Source of the DNA: Hyunsoonleella ulvae
Lineage (GTDB): Bacteria; Bacteroidota; Bacteroidia; Flavobacteriales; Flavobacteriaceae
Reading direction: 5' to 3'
Assembly (NCBI RefSeq): GCF_016827605.1
Contig: NZ_JAEPJQ010000004.1
Span: 186,001 to 250,000 of the forward strand
Length of the DNA stretch: 64,000 nucleotides
In this document: piece after piece, positions 2,789 to 9,603 of the stretch
Layout: each line of letters starts with the position of its first letter
How positions within the stretch are numbered: position 1 is the stretch's first letter
Notes under the pieces: generated by a model
The model's input: the letters and a program-made list of their open reading frames with translations, nothing else
Database searches by the model: none
Told to the model about the DNA's origin: nothing
Position numbers and translations under genes: made by a program

Positions 2789-4057
2789 ATGATACCAATA
2801 CAAAGGATGATTAAATTATGGATATGCCACATAATTCTCATATTTCCAATTTTGCTCATCGGGCAAAATGAAGAAAAACCAAAACCAACAATTAAATGGA
2901 ATGTTACTGCACAGATTTGGATGCGGTATTCCGATTTAAATGAAGGTTCGTTAATACAAGAAGAGCCTACTTCTGATTTTTTTGACATATCGATTCGTAG
3001 GTTACGTATTCCTGTATCTTCTCAAGTAACGCCTAAAATATTTCTGTATGCTATTTTTGGCGGTAATAATTTTAATTTTAAGAAGAAAGACCTTCCCTTA
3101 GAGGTACTTGATCTTTATGCCGAATATACATTTGGCAAATACTTTGAAGTTGGTGTTGGCAAGTCTGGTTGGCAAGGATTAAGTCGCTGGAATATACGCT
3201 CAAACAAAACCCTTATGGGATTAGATTCCCCTTTATTTACATTAAACTCGGTTGAAAAAAATGATGACATTGGTCGTTTATTTGGGTTATGGATTAAAGG
3301 TCAAGCTGGCAAATTTGACTATAGAATGGCTTTTAACAGACCGTTTTTTGTAACCGTTATTCCTGATGGAAAGGTAAATTTTGCCAACAACAAACCCAGA
3401 GTAAAAACCTCTGCTTATGTAAAATATCAATTTTTCGAGCATGAATCTAACAAGTCTGCTTATCAGGTAGGGACTTATATGCAACACAAAAAAGTGTTTA
3501 ACATAGGAGCTGGATTTCAATACCAACCCGAGGCCATGAGTGACGGCGATGCAAGATTAGAGTCTACTACTTTTTACGATATGAGACATTTTGCAGCAGA
3601 TGCCTTTTTAAACTTACCACTTGTTAATGGAGATGCGATTACTGCTTACCTTGGCTTTTATGATTATGATTTTGGAAAAGAATACATAAGAAATGTAGGA
3701 GCAAACAACCCGACATCAGCTGGAGGCACAGATTTTAATGGTACAGGTGTAGCTTTTCCTATGATTGGTACCGGAACCACGTGGTACGGACAATTTGGAT
3801 ACGCTTTTAAAGAAACCAAATTTTTAAACCAAAAAGTAATAATACAGCCTAATATTTCCATACAACATTCAGATTGGGATAGACTTACTGATAAAATGAC
3901 TGTTTATGATTTTACTATAAACTTTTTTGTAAATGGTTCCCATGGTAATAAATTAAGTTTGGGCTACCAACATAGACCTATTTTCGACGCCAATAATTTG
4001 CAACAAAAAGACTATAAAGGCATGGCTGTGATGCAATATCAAATCTCATTGAAATAA
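2789..4057 (+). CDS. Porin-like outer membrane beta-barrel protein (OprO/OprP-type)
   Basis: A 422-residue secreted protein. The N terminus has a hydrophobic segment (LWICHIILIFPILLIG) ending just before QNEEKP, consistent with a signal peptide; Met-7 (position 2807) would give a cleaner signal peptide than the first ATG. The rest alternates polar and aromatic residues as in beta-barrels, with phrases typical of phosphate-selective porin-like proteins (ISIRRLRIP, ELEVGVGKSGWQ-like segments) and a C-terminal beta-strand (MAVMQYQISLK). It is probably a general porin or anion channel. It stands alone, with no operon partner. Confidence 0.7.
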   Translation: MIPIQRMIKLWICHIILIFPILLIGQNEEKPKPTIKWNVTAQIWMRYSDLNEGSLIQEEPTSDFFDISIRRLRIPVSSQVTPKIFLYAIFGGNNFNFKKKDLPLEVLDLYAEYTFGKYFEVGVGKSGWQGLSRWNIRSNKTLMGLDSPLFTLNSVEKNDDIGRLFGLWIKGQAGKFDYRMAFNRPFFVTVIPDGKVNFANNKPRVKTSAYVKYQFFEHESNKSAYQVGTYMQHKKVFNIGAGFQYQPEAMSDGDARLESTTFYDMRHFAADAFLNLPLVNGDAITAYLGFYDYDFGKEYIRNVGANNPTSAGGTDFNGTGVAFPMIGTGTTWYGQFGYAFKETKFLNQKVIIQPNISIQHSDWDRLTDKMTVYDFTINFFVNGSHGNKLSLGYQHRPIFDANNLQQKDYKGMAVMQYQISLK

Positions 4058-4113
4058 CACTTTTTAAAGACACCTTGGGCTTTAAGCTAAAATTAAAATT
4101 AGCGAATATAACT

Positions 4114-4213
4114 GCCTTAGGAATTACCAAGCAAAGCCCTCTGTGCAATGAGGGGTTGAAACGAAAAGCCTGCCTGTCTACCTACAGGCCCAACCCCCGT
4201 AGGCAATGCCGCT
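4114..4213. repeat. Degenerate copy of an interspersed structured repeat
   Basis: This stretch shares a skeleton with 35991-36114: it starts GCCTTAGGAATT (other copy GCGTTAGGGATT), contains AAAGCCTGCCT followed by an AGGC-containing inverted repeat, a CCCGT block, and ends in a GCC element before TAATAAAA. It is GC-rich for its surroundings and has no ORF. It is probably a decayed member of a flavobacterial intergenic repeat family. Confidence 0.5.
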
Positions 4214-4391
4214 AATAAAAACATACAAACCTATCAACAGAGTAACAATTTATTACAAAATAGATTGCATAGAACACAAACATTTATCTTAATTACATTA
4301 AAAACTCAAAAATTAAAATCAATTTTTTTATCAATTTAACAATAATGCAACGTGAGGGTAAAAAAAATGGGCATACTACGTATATTCTGTA

Positions 4392-4399
4392 TATATTTG
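4392..4399 (+). promoter_or_regulatory. Promoter -7 element TATATTTG for the gatCAB-aspS leader
   Basis: An exact match to TAnnTTTG, 14 bases upstream of the leader-peptide ATG. Transcription would start near 4404-4407, giving a leader of about 130 nt before gatC. The -33 region is poor. Confidence 0.6.
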
Positions 4400-4412
4400 G
4401 CTTTTTAAAAGA

Positions 4413-4460
4413 ATGAGAAATAATACTAACAATAATAATTTCAATAATCCTATGCAATAG
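4413..4460 (+). CDS. Asn-rich leader peptide (15 residues) of the gatCAB-aspS attenuator
   Basis: ATG 4413 to TAG 4458-4460 encodes MRNNTNNNNFNNPMQ: eight Asn in fifteen codons, with Asn at residues 3, 4, 6-9, 11 and 12. The frame begins shortly after the predicted transcription start and ends inside the first of three ordered hairpins, as in classical leader peptides of amino-acid operons. The operon downstream makes Asn-tRNA, so a ribosome stalling on Asn codons would sense the right product. The AT-rich context makes AAT codons cheap, so the Asn bias alone is not proof; position and RNA architecture carry the argument. Confidence 0.65.
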   Translation: MRNNTNNNNFNNPMQ

Positions 4461-4520
4461 GATTGGAAGGTTATTGTTTTAACATATTAAAAAGCCTTCC
4501 CATAACGGAAGGCTTTTTTT
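4446..4520 (+). promoter_or_regulatory. Transcription attenuator of gatC-gatA-gatB/aspS
   Basis: Region 1, AATCCTA (4446-4452, inside the leader ORF), pairs with region 2, TAGGATT (4458-4464). Region 2 continues into GGAAGG (4465-4470), which can instead pair with region 3, CCTTCC (4495-4500). Region 3 is also the left arm of the terminator (4491-4516). The 1:2 + 3:4 fold terminates; the 2:3 fold, favoured when a ribosome stalls on the Asn codons and covers region 1, would antiterminate. The order and spacing match classical trp/his-type attenuators. This is inferred from base pairing by eye. Confidence 0.65.
4491..4520 (+). terminator. Intrinsic terminator upstream of gatC (attenuator arm)
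   Basis: AAAGCCTTCC (4491-4500), loop CATAAC, GGAAGGCTTT (4507-4516), followed by more T to 4520. It is a strong hairpin plus U-tract only 18 bases before the gatC ATG. No complete gene lies just upstream on this strand, so it does not simply end another transcript. Confidence 0.8.
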
Positions 4521-4537
4521 AATCTAAAATTACAGCT

Positions 4538-4807
4538 ATGAGTAAGATTATGACGGTAGACGTTTTGTCGAGCATTAAAGGTGCGCAGCCTTCTGAAACC
4601 GTGAATAAACTATTTGAGGTAATTAAAAATGCTAATACTTCAAACAATAATTCTTTTGATGCCAACAAAAATACTGCCGTGTCTTTAGATAATTTAAGGG
4701 ACGATGTAATTATTGATAGCTCTGAGGCTGAAAAGGAAATTATCATTGAAAATTTTCCAAAACAAAAAAACAACTACTTAGTAGTTTCTAAAGTTATTGA
4801 AAGTTAA
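4538..4807 (+). CDS. gatC: Divergent GatC subunit of the Asp/Glu-tRNA amidotransferase
   Basis: An 89-residue protein directly ahead of gatA. The C-terminal third follows the GatC pattern: LDNLRDDVIIDSSEAEKEI resembles the family's NxLRxDxVxxSLSxEEAL segment, and the end NNYLVVSKVIES matches the usual DGYFxVPKVIE terminus. The N-terminal half is atypical and Asn/Ser-rich. GatC wraps around GatA and GatB to stabilise the GatCAB complex that amidates Asp-tRNA-Asn and Glu-tRNA-Gln. The call rests on the C-terminal motif, the length and the position in the operon. Confidence 0.75.
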   Translation: MSKIMTVDVLSSIKGAQPSETVNKLFEVIKNANTSNNNSFDANKNTAVSLDNLRDDVIIDSSEAEKEIIIENFPKQKNNYLVVSKVIES

Positions 4808-4810
4808 TTT

Positions 4811-6211
4811 ATGGACTCTCAAATTAGAAAAACCCATCAACTTTTGGTGGACAAAAATATAACATGTGTACAGCTTGTAAAAGAAAAATTAGAAGCCTTA
4901 AAACCTAATACACACCATACGGTTAATGCTTTATTAGATGAGCTGGCCCTTGAACTAGCTGCTAAAGTTGATGCTAAAATATCTAATGGAGAAAACATTG
5001 GCTTATTAGAGGGTATCCCTTTTGGCATTAAAGATGTGTATATGGTACAGGGTACGTACACAACTGCCAGCTCTAATTTACTTAAAAACTATAAATCGGC
5101 TTACACAGCTACAGCAATCCAAAAACTATTGGATGCTGGTGCCATTCCTTTAGTAAAAGAAAATTGCGATAGTTTTGGTCATGGTTCCTCAAGTGAGAAC
5201 ACCATTTTTGGAGCTGTAAAAAATGCTGTAAATCCTGAGTTAGTTGGTGGTGGTTCCAGTGGTGGTTCTGCTGTTAACGTTGCCAAAGCATATACCGTAT
5301 TTTCAATTGGTGGCGATACAGGCGGATCAATTCGTCAGCCTGCAGGTTATAACAAGGTTTATGGGTTGAAACCAACCTACGGACGTGTATCCAGATACGG
5401 GTTAATGGCCTATGCATCATCTACGGATTGTGTTGGTCCAATTGCAACATCTATTGAGGATATCCGCATTGTTTTAAATACCATAAGCGGGAAAGATGGA
5501 AAAGACCAAACCTCTTATCCTTCAGATTTGATTACTGAAGACAGCCTATCAAAATACGACAACATAAAAACTGTTGGTTATTTTAAAAATTTTATTGATA
5601 GCGAAGCTATTGACACCAAAATAAAAGCAGATTTTCTAGATACAATTGAAAAGATAAAAGCCAAAGGCATTACAGTAAAAGCTTTAGATTTTTTTGAATC
5701 CAACACACTTGTTTCCACCTACTATACATTAGCAATGGCAGAAACAGCATCAAACTTATCAAGGCTAGATGGAACAAATTATGGTAATCGTATTGAAGCC
5801 GAAGATTTAAAAGAAACGTATGCTGTTACTCGTTCTGAAAATTTTTCAGAAGAGACTAAACGCAGAATCGTTGGTGGCAATCAGGTATTATCACAAGGAT
5901 TTTCAGATGAAATCTACTTAAAAGGATTAAACCTAAGAGACCAAATTTCTGAAAACTTTGAACATGATTTTAACGAAGTAGACATTATCATATCGCCAGT
6001 AACACCAAATACACCACCCAAAATTGGAGATAGTTTAAAAGATCCATTAGCGATGTATTTATCTGATGCGTATACCGTTGGTTTTAGCTTAGGGCAGTTG
6101 CCTACTTTAACCATTCCACAGGGCACAGATACTGGCATACAAATTACTGCCGCAAAAACGAATGACGAACTTGTTTTGAAGTTTGCAAACTTCCTAAAAG
6201 ATACGATATAA
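4811..6211 (+). CDS. gatA: Aspartyl/glutamyl-tRNA amidotransferase subunit A
   Basis: The amidase subunit, which releases ammonia from glutamine and channels it to GatB. The amidase-signature Ser-cisSer-Lys triad is visible: Lys-74 in GIKDVY, cis-Ser-149 in GGGSSGGSA and nucleophile Ser-173 in DTGGSIRQPAG. The spacing is the same as in characterised bacterial GatA. At 466 residues it is a normal length. It starts 3 bases after the gatC stop, and its TAA overlaps the gatB/aspS ATG by one base, indicating translational coupling. Confidence 0.96.
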   Translation: MDSQIRKTHQLLVDKNITCVQLVKEKLEALKPNTHHTVNALLDELALELAAKVDAKISNGENIGLLEGIPFGIKDVYMVQGTYTTASSNLLKNYKSAYTATAIQKLLDAGAIPLVKENCDSFGHGSSSENTIFGAVKNAVNPELVGGGSSGGSAVNVAKAYTVFSIGGDTGGSIRQPAGYNKVYGLKPTYGRVSRYGLMAYASSTDCVGPIATSIEDIRIVLNTISGKDGKDQTSYPSDLITEDSLSKYDNIKTVGYFKNFIDSEAIDTKIKADFLDTIEKIKAKGITVKALDFFESNTLVSTYYTLAMAETASNLSRLDGTNYGNRIEAEDLKETYAVTRSENFSEETKRRIVGGNQVLSQGFSDEIYLKGLNLRDQISENFEHDFNEVDIIISPVTPNTPPKIGDSLKDPLAMYLSDAYTVGFSLGQLPTLTIPQGTDTGIQITAAKTNDELVLKFANFLKDTI

Positions 6212-9200
6212 TGGAGCTAAATCAATTAAATGAGCTATTAAAAGCACACGAGATAGAATTGGTAATCGGTCTTGAAACACATGTTCGATTAAATACCAAA
6301 ACAAAGCTATTTTGTTCTTGTGCCAATGCTGGGGATATCGAAATTCCAAACGTTAATATTTGTTCGGTTTGTACGGGGCAAATGGGTGTATTACCTGCTA
6401 TAAACAAAGAGGCTATAAAAAAAGCGATTCACTTTGGTAAGGCAGTTAAATCTACGTTTAGTAACGAGATAATCTCTTGGGACAGGAAACACTATGAGTA
6501 TCCAGATAACCCCAAAAACATACAAATAACACAGTTTCATAATCCAGTAATTCCAGACGGACAAGTATCCTGCTTTAGAAATGACGGCTCCCAATTTACC
6601 GTAAATTTAACACAGGTACACATTGAGGAAGATGCTGCTAAATTAATACACGAGAAAAATATCTCTCTGGTAGATTTTAATAAAGCTGGAGTACCACTAA
6701 TAGAAATAGTAACAGAGCCATGTATTCGACATATTGAAGATGCTTCCACTTATGCACAATACATTCAGCGTATTGTACAAAATTTAGGAATTTCAGAGGC
6801 CAACCTTGAAAAAGGAGAGTTTAAATCAGACGTTTCTGTTTCACTTCGTAAAAAACATAACTATGATTTAAATCCTCGTACCGAAATAAAAAACCTTAAC
6901 TCGTTTAAGTTTATGGTTGAGGCGTTAAAAGAAGAAGTTGAAAAACAGCTTAATTACTATCTGGAACATAAAGAGTTTAGACCAGACCAAACCACGGTGC
7001 TTTTTGATGCTGATTTGAAGCAAACCAAGACGATGCGTAAAAAGGAGTTTGAAGCAGATTACCGTTTTATATCTGAACCAGACCTCCCTTTTGTAAACAT
7101 AAAAGATACTGTAGAGCGCATAGATGTAGATTTAAGCACACTGCCTTTTGCTGTAGAATCTATTTTGATAAAAGGTGGTGTTCTACCTCAAGACGCAAAG
7201 TTTTTTACTGGAGATGCCTTACGTTCTGAAACCTTTGTAAGCATAAACAATGTTATAAAAGAACCATCATTTGTCGCTAAAACCTTAACTAACAATATTA
7301 AACCTGAAGACTATTCTAAAATTGAACATATTTCTGATTTTATTGAAATTTTCAGTCTGTTTAAAAATGAAAAAGTAACCCCAGTTTTAGCACAAAACGC
7401 CATAAAATCTTTATTAGCTGATGCTAAATTCGATTACAAAACGTATTTTGATAACAACAGCATTTCTGAAGAAAAAATCGATGGGGCTATTGCTAAAGTT
7501 ATTGTTGAAAATGAAGCAGTAGCAAACGATATTAAAGCTGGCAACCAAGGAAAAGCAGGGATTTTAGTTGGTAAGGTTATTGGGATTATCGGTAAAGGTG
7601 CTTCCGGAAAAGTAATTAGGGAACGTATCTTAAACCAGTTACAAAGTTCTGATACCAAAACAGACCAAACCAATGTCTCTGGAATACAAGACGCAAAAGT
7701 AAAAGGGCAGAAACTAAAGACTGAGGAAGAAGAACTGCCTGAAATCCCAATTGTTATAAAAGAACAATACCGAACGCACAAGGCTTCAGATTTAAGCGAA
7801 ACGTCTATTTCAGAAAACGTAACCCTGGCAGGCTGGGTATCTAGTGTTAGAGACCACGGAGAGCTCATGTTTATTGACTTACGCGATTCTAGCCATGAGA
7901 TTTTCCAAGTAAGGCTAAGTAAAGAAACCTTTGCCAATCTGGATGCATTGGTAAAATTAAAACCAGAATCTGTAATTACGGTTACTGGTCAAGTAGTGCG
8001 CCGTAATCCTGATGACTACAACCCGTCCATAAGAACAGGAACGATTGAGCTGGAAACTTCTCAATTAGATATTCTAAATTTATCCAAAACGCTCCCTTTT
8101 GAAATTAAAAGGGCGCACACATCAAATGAAACCGTTCGTTTTCAATACAAATATTTAGACCACAGAAACGACGCCGTTAGAAAAGCCATAGTAAATCGCC
8201 ATAGGGTTATCAAACTCATGCGTGATATTCTAGATGAGCAAGAATTCCTAGAAGTAGAAACACCTATCCTAACAGCAGGAACCGATGAGGGCGCAAGGGA
8301 ATTTATTGTACCTACTAGAAAAAAAGCAGGTTCTTTTTATACTTTACCGCAAGCACCACAACAGTTTAAGCAAATTTTAATGGTAAGTGGTTACGAAAAA
8401 TACTTCCAGATCGCACGTTGTTTTAGGGATGAGGATTCTCGTGGCGATAGGCAGCCAGAGTTTACACAACTAGATATAGAAATGGCTTATGCGAGTATGC
8501 AGGACATTATTGATTTAAACACTAAAATGTTTAATGATATTGTAACCAAAATCTATGGTAGAAAATGGATGCTGCATCCTTTTGAAGTTTTAACCTACAA
8601 GGAAGCTATGGACAACTATGGATGCGACAGACCTGATTTACGCTTCGGATTAAAACTACAAGACATTACGGACATAGTAAAAGAGACCTCATTCCAAGTA
8701 TTTAGTAAACCCATAGATGAAGGTGGTATTGTAAAATGCATAAAAGTATCTGCTAAAGAACAAGGTAGTAAACGCCTATCTAAAGGTCAGATTGAAAAAC
8801 TAACAACTATTGCACAAGATAATGGCCTTGGCGGCTTAGCTTATATAATAGTGAATGAAAACGATTTGCAATCGCCTATCATTAAATTTTTAGGAGAATC
8901 TATTGCAGAAAATATCATAAAAACTACCAAGGCGCAAATTGGCGATATTGTATTCTTCTCTGCTGCTGATTACGACACTGCAAATAAAGCGTTAGATGCC
9001 GTTAGACAGGAATTAGGCAACATGCTAAAACTTATCAATCACAAAGAATTGCGACCTGCTTGGGTGGTAGATTTCCCGATGTTTGAAAAAACCGATGAAG
9101 GCAACTGGACCTTTACCCACAATCCATTCTCTATGCCTGCAGTATACGATATAGATAAGCACATTAACGGTAAAGAAGAAGAAATTGGAAGTATTATTGC

Positions 9201-9549
9201 CCAGCAATACGATTTAATTCTTAACGGTTATGAAATTGGTGGTGGCTCTGTTCGTGCACACAAACCTGAAATTTTGGAAGCCACTTATAAAAACATGGGG
9301 TACAATAAAGACGAAATGATGAAAAGTGTAGGCACTATGTACCAGGCTTTTCATTATGGCGCACCGCCGCATGGTGGTATAGCTTGGGGTGTAGACAGAC
9401 TCATGATGATTTTAGAGAAGAAAGCTTCCATTCGCGAGGTGATGGCATTCCCAAAAACAGGAACCAGTGAAGACTTACTATTTGGTTCGCCTTCTCCACT
9501 TTCTGATAAAAAAGTTGAGGAGATGAATGTTAAAGTCATTAAGAAATAA
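6211..9549 (+). CDS. gatB/aspS: Fused GatB amidotransferase subunit and aspartyl-tRNA synthetase
   Basis: A 1112-residue two-enzyme fusion. Residues 1 to about 485 are GatB: IGLETHVRL near the start, a CxC...CxxC zinc site (Cys-35, -37, -51, -54), the catalytic cradle and the C-terminal helical tail domain. A charged linker (about 485-520) leads to bacterial-type AspRS: OB-fold anticodon domain from about 538 (LAGWVSSVRDHGELMF), class II motif 2 around 738 (CFRDEDSRGDRQPEFTQLD), GAD insertion, and motif 3 around 1057 (IAWGVDRLM). His in RDHG sits where discriminating E. coli AspRS has Leu, as in non-discriminating Pseudomonas AspRS, so mischarging of tRNA-Asn is likely. The fusion would hand Asp-tRNA-Asn straight to the amidotransferase. 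Confidence 0.95.
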   Translation: MELNQLNELLKAHEIELVIGLETHVRLNTKTKLFCSCANAGDIEIPNVNICSVCTGQMGVLPAINKEAIKKAIHFGKAVKSTFSNEIISWDRKHYEYPDNPKNIQITQFHNPVIPDGQVSCFRNDGSQFTVNLTQVHIEEDAAKLIHEKNISLVDFNKAGVPLIEIVTEPCIRHIEDASTYAQYIQRIVQNLGISEANLEKGEFKSDVSVSLRKKHNYDLNPRTEIKNLNSFKFMVEALKEEVEKQLNYYLEHKEFRPDQTTVLFDADLKQTKTMRKKEFEADYRFISEPDLPFVNIKDTVERIDVDLSTLPFAVESILIKGGVLPQDAKFFTGDALRSETFVSINNVIKEPSFVAKTLTNNIKPEDYSKIEHISDFIEIFSLFKNEKVTPVLAQNAIKSLLADAKFDYKTYFDNNSISEEKIDGAIAKVIVENEAVANDIKAGNQGKAGILVGKVIGIIGKGASGKVIRERILNQLQSSDTKTDQTNVSGIQDAKVKGQKLKTEEEELPEIPIVIKEQYRTHKASDLSETSISENVTLAGWVSSVRDHGELMFIDLRDSSHEIFQVRLSKETFANLDALVKLKPESVITVTGQVVRRNPDDYNPSIRTGTIELETSQLDILNLSKTLPFEIKRAHTSNETVRFQYKYLDHRNDAVRKAIVNRHRVIKLMRDILDEQEFLEVETPILTAGTDEGAREFIVPTRKKAGSFYTLPQAPQQFKQILMVSGYEKYFQIARCFRDEDSRGDRQPEFTQLDIEMAYASMQDIIDLNTKMFNDIVTKIYGRKWMLHPFEVLTYKEAMDNYGCDRPDLRFGLKLQDITDIVKETSFQVFSKPIDEGGIVKCIKVSAKEQGSKRLSKGQIEKLTTIAQDNGLGGLAYIIVNENDLQSPIIKFLGESIAENIIKTTKAQIGDIVFFSAADYDTANKALDAVRQELGNMLKLINHKELRPAWVVDFPMFEKTDEGNWTFTHNPFSMPAVYDIDKHINGKEEEIGSIIAQQYDLILNGYEIGGGSVRAHKPEILEATYKNMGYNKDEMMKSVGTMYQAFHYGAPPHGGIAWGVDRLMMILEKKASIREVMAFPKTGTSEDLLFGSPSPLSDKKVEEMNVKVIKK

Positions 9550-9570: not shown

Positions 9571-9603
9571 AAAGCCTCAGAGATATCTGGGGCTTTTCGT
9601 TTT
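9571..9603 (+). terminator. Terminator of the gatCAB-aspS operon
   Basis: AAAGCCTCAG (9571-9580) and CTGGGGCTTT (9587-9596), one G-U pair, with a following T-rich stretch, 21 bases after the gatB/aspS stop. Confidence 0.8.

Follow-up and report, generated by a model that had tools for sequence, protein, structure and literature searches.

The window analysed here, a stretch of 64,000 nt from Hyunsoonleella ulvae, contains an operon of gatC, gatA and a gatB-aspS fusion (Table 1). Directly before gatC, at 4392-4537, lies an attenuator-like element made of a TAnnTTTG box, a short ORF rich in Asn codons and competing hairpins. The upstream neighbour gene ends at 4057 and weakly matches a porin model.

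Table 1. Features of the gatC leader and of the operon downstream of it.
Feature	Position	Strand	Basis
Putative leader promoter, Bacteroidota sigma-A -7 box TATATTTG (TAnnTTTG)	4392-4399	+	sequence
Leader ORF MRNNTNNNNFNNPMQ, 15 codons, 8 Asn, TAG stop	4413-4460	+	sequence
Region 1: AACAATAAT (4428-4436) and TTTC (4439-4442), partner of region 2 in untranslated RNA	4428-4442	+	predicted fold
Small hairpin AATCCTA (4446-4452) / TAGGATT (4458-4464), across the ORF end and the stop codon	4446-4464	+	sequence, fold
Region 2: GGAAGGTT (4465-4472, antiterminator arm), overlapping GTTATTGTT (4470-4478, partner of region 1)	4465-4478	+	fold, spacing to stop
Region 3: AGCCTTCC, common to antiterminator (2:3) and terminator (3:4)	4493-4500	+	2:3 pair counts
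Region 4: GGAAGGC and T7, 3' half of the intrinsic terminator (whole hairpin 4490-4520)	4507-4520	+	sequence, fold
gatC, 89 aa	4538-4807	+	no NCBIfam match; named by position; beside gatA in 57/57 loci
gatA, 466 aa	4811-6211	+	TIGR00132, E 5e-129, 431 bits, below the curated cut-off of 481
gatB-aspS fusion, 1112 aa, GatB followed by a bacterial-type AspRS	6211-9549	+	NF004012 (GatB) and NF001750 (AspRS), both over cut-off
Terminator-like hairpin at the operon end	9571-9596	+	terminator scan

The leader ORF reads ATG AGA AAT AAT ACT AAC AAT AAT AAT TTC AAT AAT CCT ATG CAA TAG, and the antiterminator pairing joins GGAAGG (4465-4470) to CCTTCC (4495-4500). An earlier note on this DNA had described the -7 box, the ORF with eight Asn codons, the hairpin at the ORF end and this pairing, and all of them were located in the sequence at the coordinates it gave. 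The strong terminator that it placed before gatC is also present, with a gap of 17 nt to the gatC ATG rather than 18. The TAnnTTTG box, which matches a published consensus (PMC9723704), lies 10-23 nt 5' of the start codon in all 56 distinct leaders scored, and transcription of the leader probably proceeds from the box at 4392. The leader RNA (4400-4525) is predicted to fold with -32.5 kcal/mol (z -5.2), a value equalled by none of 200 shuffles. A short ORF at least half Asn with at least eight Asn codons arose in 0 of 5000 dinucleotide shuffles of 4058-4537, and one with at least six in 2 of 5000. A generic terminator scan of the window listed the hairpin at the operon end and not the one before gatC; we think that some of the T run is taken up in A-T pairs of the stem.

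Of 397 Flavobacteriaceae genomes, 58 gave a GatA, and the gatC upstream region was readable in 57. The leader with its terminator, called by the pattern M..NNNNFNNP, a CCTA/TAGG hairpin, GGAAGGTT and a terminator, precedes gatC in 35 of these 57 loci and is absent from 22, including the two other genomes of the genus to which the window belongs; 15 of the 22 leaderless regions carry instead a TAATTTNG box 23-42 nt before gatC. The conservation in relatives that had been proposed as a check is therefore strong where the leader is present, but it is not universal. An overlapping set of 80 named loci gave the leader in 35 of the 79 with upstream DNA (L104 has none), 32 being scored by script and three (L074, L078, L092) by reading. 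When a covariance model built from the 35 leaders was run against the 397 genomes, 37 matches scored 96-132 bits and the next 56.9; all 37 lie directly before gatC and are the 35 leaders plus two on broken contigs. No second strong copy was found in any of the 397 genomes with Infernal under stricter filters, which lose weak matches. Four weak matches were examined and none is a gatC leader: that in G250 is an ilvD leader, and those in G114, G199 and G058 were taken for ordinary terminators. In two loci (L111, L115) the distance between leader stop and gatC is 243 and 176 nt, compared with 75-105 nt elsewhere, with extra sequence between the terminator and gatC.

Pairwise identity among 59 distinct copies is 82% from the ATG to the terminator, compared with 51% over the 100 nt that precede the promoter region (59 copies), 50% between the terminator and gatC (57 copies), and 76% in gatC and 48% at third codon positions of gatA (57 copies). 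This conservation is the strongest evidence that the element is not a chance feature. A gatA tree of 101 rows shows a patchy leader that changes state 13 times when L104 is counted as leaderless despite lacking upstream DNA and L035-L061 (too little gatA) are left out. The gyrB gene lies within the flank of 28 of the 35 leader loci and 30 of the 45 leaderless loci (L104 included), and this similar neighbourhood suggests that the leader was gained and lost in place rather than carried by a transferred cassette.

The contrast between the conserved element and its flanks or the gatA third positions might also be explained if the leader RNA or peptide acted in trans as well, for example as a small RNA produced by termination, and a terminator-ended RNA of about 110 nt would indeed arise under Asn-rich conditions. 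However, most of the conserved bases are already used by the coding and by the two alternative folds, and strong copies are limited to one per genome and stand in cis to gatC without exception, so that we regard an additional action in trans as improbable.

The coding content of the leader points to the amino acid that is read. All 56 distinct leaders have 14-16 codons, 7-10 Asn codons and a TAG stop, and 55 start with ATG. With codon columns numbered from the conserved Phe, and with counts that refer to related sequences rather than to independent events, Asn is found in 59/59 copies at columns -4, -3, -1, +1 and +2, in 52/59 at -2 and in 30/59 at -7. Asn codons outside helices vary mostly synonymously; columns -6 and -5, which belong to none of the helices, have Asn in 54/59 copies each, with AAT/AAC counts of 42/12 and 31/23, respectively. 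Gaps 5' of the leader core are 0, 3 or 6 nt long. Region 2 is the pairing partner of the Phe codon, and the stop-side arm of the small hairpin that of the Pro codon; each of the two codons is replaced in 1/59 copies; in L078 the Phe is lost and the Asn run is kept. The Asn-codon run thus appears to be under selection as coding sequence.

The spacing of stop codon and antiterminator is held as well, region 2 starting 7 nt from the first stop-codon base in 46 copies, 8 nt in 11 and 6 nt in 2 (n = 59). The antiterminator and the terminator are mutually exclusive and have region 3 as a common arm. Across 35 aligned sequences, all 280 cells of the 2:3 helix are standard pairs, with no double change, while the 3:4 terminator helix is paired in 96.4% of cells and has two pairs with double changes; the five aligned pairs of the small ORF-end hairpin are standard in 35/35 rows. 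The structure formed by 1:2 and 3:4 together is paired in 98.2% of cells, with two double-change pairs, a number equalled by 84 of 500 shuffles, and 13 double-change cells, which 0 of 500 shuffles reach. The covariation of the pairings, proposed as a test in the earlier note, is thus seen at two pairs of 1:2/3:4 but not in 2:3, in a test that has little power because the leader sequence hardly varies.

The leading edge of the E. coli ribosome lies at P+15. With this edge and RNA modelled up to region 3, the 2:3 helix is formed in 525 of 527 cases with the ribosome stalled at an Asn codon and in 0 of 59 with it at the stop, and a stall at the last Asn codon still permits 2:3 in 59/59 copies. 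In the model, a stalled ribosome would therefore free region 2 and a ribosome at the stop codon would mask it. The contrast between stall and stop holds for modelled edges from P+14 to P+17; at P+13, 2:3 also forms at the stop in 10/59 copies, and at P+12 in 53/59, region 2 being unmasked. Mean energies are -9.9 kcal/mol for 2:3, -15.4 for 3:4 and -12.4 for 1:2. The full-length fold of four copies contains the terminator in every state, which implies that antitermination has to work kinetically. RNA up to region 3 that carries no ribosome favours 2:3 in 43/59 copies and the protector 1:2 in 16/59, and 1:2 is found in the consensus fold; since only 16/59 copies favour 1:2, the untranslated state is not clearly OFF.

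We conclude that gatC-gatA-gatB/aspS is very probably controlled by this element, acting as a ribosome-mediated transcription attenuator with charged tRNA-Asn as the signal sensed. When Asn-tRNA is plentiful, the leading ribosome would reach the TAG stop and cover GGAAGG in region 2, whereupon the 3:4 terminator would form and transcription would end before gatC. Under a shortage of Asn-tRNA, the ribosome would stall in the Asn run and block the 1:2 pairing, and the free region 2 would pair with region 3 ahead of the synthesis of region 4, allowing read-through into gatCAB-aspS. The products of these genes would charge tRNA-Asn with Asp and then amidate it to Asn-tRNA-Asn, so the genes downstream are ones that make and charge the sensed amino acid. 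This reading had been put forward in the earlier note, and the Asn coding, the fixed spacing from stop codon to antiterminator and the conserved, mutually exclusive pairings, from sequence and modelling, argue in its favour.

Another possibility is that the leader is constitutive, the terminator only damping gatCAB and the Asn-rich peptide being a fixed device, for example one for reinitiation, with no response to Asn-tRNA; reinitiation has been proposed at short leaders (PMC4833913). The leader stop, however, lies at least 75 nt from gatC in 56/56 leaders, which is too distant for the peaks at 10-16 nt described in the same source (PMC4833913). As the Asn coding and the exclusive pairings are what is conserved, a constitutive leader seems very improbable to us.

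T-boxes bind tRNA directly, without a leader peptide or a ribosome. The idea that the element is such a T-box-like tRNA-binding RNA or another ligand-sensing RNA, with an incidental Asn-rich stretch and an ORF whose translation is unneeded, has in its favour the very high nucleotide conservation, which includes most third codon positions of the core, and a Clostridium acetobutylicum T-box that, judging by the title of a paper, controls tRNA-dependent amidation, but we give it hardly any credence, because the 25 Rfam matches in 4058-4600 with E values of up to 10 include no T-box, the survey in PMC2494555 gives 0 T-boxes for 7 Bacteroidetes/Chlorobi genomes, changes in unpaired Asn codons are mostly synonymous with gaps in threes, and the stop codon is held 6-8 nt from region 2.

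The attenuator reading has well-known precedents. The trp, his, leu, thr and phe leaders of E. coli and its relatives code for a peptide rich in the regulated amino acid, have overlapping 1:2, 2:3 and 3:4 pairings, and use a ribosome parked at the stop codon to mask region 2. The window element resembles that design, with 1:2 as a predicted pairing, and likewise has genes downstream that make or charge the amino acid. It differs from those attenuators in its Asn codons, in its Bacteroidota promoter and in its target, the AspRS and GatCAB route, whose product is the sensed aminoacyl-tRNA. The mechanism would thus be classical, whereas the amino acid and the target appear to be new as far as the literature searched goes. 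When compared with Rfam, the window scored 30.9 bits with Phe_leader and 23.8 bits with Thr_leader, both below the gathering threshold of 55. At gathering thresholds, the only Rfam match in the whole window is the S4-Flavobacteria ribosomal protein leader RF03141 (60811-60849, minus strand, 44.9 bits), with none at the gatC leader.

Within the same bacterial family, strong clues for leader peptide attenuation have been described before amino-acid biosynthesis operons of Flavobacterium psychrophilum (PMC9723704). These attenuators are of the same mechanism class as the window leader, but the passage concerned mentions neither asparagine nor gatCAB, and 'asparagin' has 0 occurrences in the main text (PMC9723704). 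The open-licence literature searched yielded no attenuator with an Asn leader for either gatCAB or asnB. The earlier note knew of no described attenuator for a transamidation operon; this needs correction, since two titles in the reference list of PMC4206432 (one of 2012; a two-codon T-box, Saad et al. 2013) indicate that a T-box controls tRNA-dependent amidation in C. acetobutylicum. Judging by these titles, that T-box and the window leader are both RNA controls of the indirect Asn-tRNA route, and apparently the same circuit has been built with a leader peptide in Bacteroidota and with a T-box in Clostridium.

The operon itself has the composition expected for tRNA-dependent asparagine formation, with GatA, GatB and AspRS encoded together and U1-A72 in tRNA-Asn. 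The nearest named gatA to that of the window is from Hyunsoonleella pacifica (92%). The motif in the fused AspRS is RD-His-G, compared with RD-Lys-G in the separate AspRS of the same genome, and RD-His-G is present in 73/73 named loci that match the pattern (7/80 are unmatched). The His at this site is presumably a mark of a non-discriminating AspRS, and the fused enzyme is a candidate non-discriminating AspRS. U1-A72, which is needed in tRNA-Asn (PMC4206432), occurs in 30/30 loci read, gatA-less genomes included, and is consequently not discriminating; the acceptor of tRNA-Asn in the window genome is TCCTCAG/CTGAGGA with G73. A GatB-AspRS fusion was also seen in 9 genomes of another family among 395 genomes of the class, where the leader is absent from the 8 upstream regions read; the ninth ended before gatA.

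Among the 397 family genomes, 58 have gatA, 286 have housekeeping AsnB (query from G010, E at most 1e-150), 0 have both and 53 have neither (Fisher p 6e-39, ignoring kinship); the 53 could be auxotrophs or users of AsnA. AsnA was found in 0 of the 58 gatA genomes and in 2 of 16 others. The operon takes the place of the housekeeping asparagine synthetase, and its leader is therefore best seen as an amino-acid biosynthesis attenuator. GlnRS is present in 57 of the 58 gatA genomes, the sole miss being a genome that is 76% complete, which indicates that GatCAB is not needed for Gln-tRNA. Other AsnB-like proteins over the TIGR01536 cut-off occur in 22 of the 58 gatA genomes and in 12 of 36 leader genomes scored, that of the window included, and free Asn synthesis may thus occur there. 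The only such protein of the window's genome (631 aa, L193 2246-4141) adjoins genes that we read from their sequences as glycosyltransferase-like. GlnRS frames are at least 660 aa long in most gatA genomes, with exceptions of 574 aa (G113), 600 aa (G269) and 591 aa (G170, partial), and 563-582 aa long in three gatA-less genomes; with only these three controls, this is a hint that the longer form has an extension going with GatCAB.

The direct route to Asn-tRNA is usually present too. Of the 58 gatA genomes, 53 have an AsnRS that passes the cut-off, the genome of the window among them; the five misses are four complete, leaderless genomes (G180, G228, G237, G383) and the 76% complete genome, which has the leader. 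An essential GatCAB in the absence of AsnRS was considered and rejected, as AsnRS was found in the window's genome. Complete genomes with AsnRS comprise 33 with the leader and 18 without, and those lacking AsnRS 0 and 4, respectively; a restriction of the leader to genomes with AsnRS is a weak link (Fisher p 0.02 without kinship correction). The enzymes that the leader was said to switch on do lie downstream as gatCAB-aspS, but since AsnRS is also present they constitute a second route to Asn-tRNA, usually beside direct AsnRS. The gatA genomes may have exchanged AsnB for synthesis of Asn on tRNA while mostly keeping AsnRS for supplied Asn.

Such dual routes are known from other bacteria. AsnRS occurs together with ND-AspRS and GatCAB, as well as with GlnRS, in Bdellovibrio, Deinococcus and Thermus, and both Bdellovibrio and S. 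aureus are without AsnA and AsnB (PMC4206432). The second AspRS is of archaeal type in Deinococcus-Thermus, in contrast to the bacterial-type, GatB-fused enzyme of the window, and the passages on the dual routes of Bdellovibrio, Deinococcus, Thermus and S. aureus in PMC4206432 describe no attenuator. The reason for which Bdellovibrio retains the tRNA-dependent Asn route although it possesses AsnRS is described as unclear (PMC4206432).

A similar design was observed at another asparagine-making gene. Asn-rich leaders with terminators precede housekeeping asnB in G010, G242 and G394, three genomes of one genus that are without gatA matches; the leader ORFs are MSLNNNIRINNNFLQR, MSLNNNIRINNNSLQT and MIKNNNINSNNNSCHT (L268, L269 and L270, respectively), and their stops lie 76-80 nt before asnB. 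Their region 2/3/4 pairings, folded for G010 and traced by eye for the others, are unrelated in sequence to those of the gatC leader. The asnB leaders thus provide independent support for sensing of Asn-tRNA by leaders in this family. No such leader was seen at the other 27 of the 30 asnB loci; short ORFs with 6-7 Asn codons occur at L277, L280 and L293. No Asn leader was found before asnS, whose frame was located at 10 of 13 loci; at most 4 Asn codons occur in the best short ORFs within 300 nt, and the most Asn-like ORF there is MTKPKMKTKMKKNYNNN (L152).

It is likely, in our judgement, that flavobacteria evolved Asn-tRNA-sensing attenuators more than once on the genes from which they make asparagine, with a near-invariant leader on gatCAB-aspS where this operon has displaced AsnB and an unrelated leader of like design on asnB in another genus, and that the gatCAB leader selects between two coexisting routes to Asn-tRNA. 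AsnRS would serve under a supply of Asn, and AspRS-GatCAB in its absence. If so, the leader would be the first Asn-specific ribosome-mediated attenuator in the literature searched, and asparagine would join the amino acids read by ribosome-mediated attenuation. It would also explain why bacteria keep both routes: a possible answer is that, in genomes without housekeeping AsnB and for the most part with AsnRS, the second route is governed by a sensor for the Asn-tRNA that it produces.

Leaders of the same design, but with other sequences and for other amino acids, were also observed in the family. Searched by script, the ilvD upstream regions of G114 and G163 gave no convincing leader. Ile/Val-rich leaders with terminators precede ilvD in G250 (L190/L213) and G034 (L215), and a weaker Ile/Val leader is present in the genome of the window (L216, before G000:C17:256690). 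These Ile/Val leaders end 310-370 nt before ilvD.
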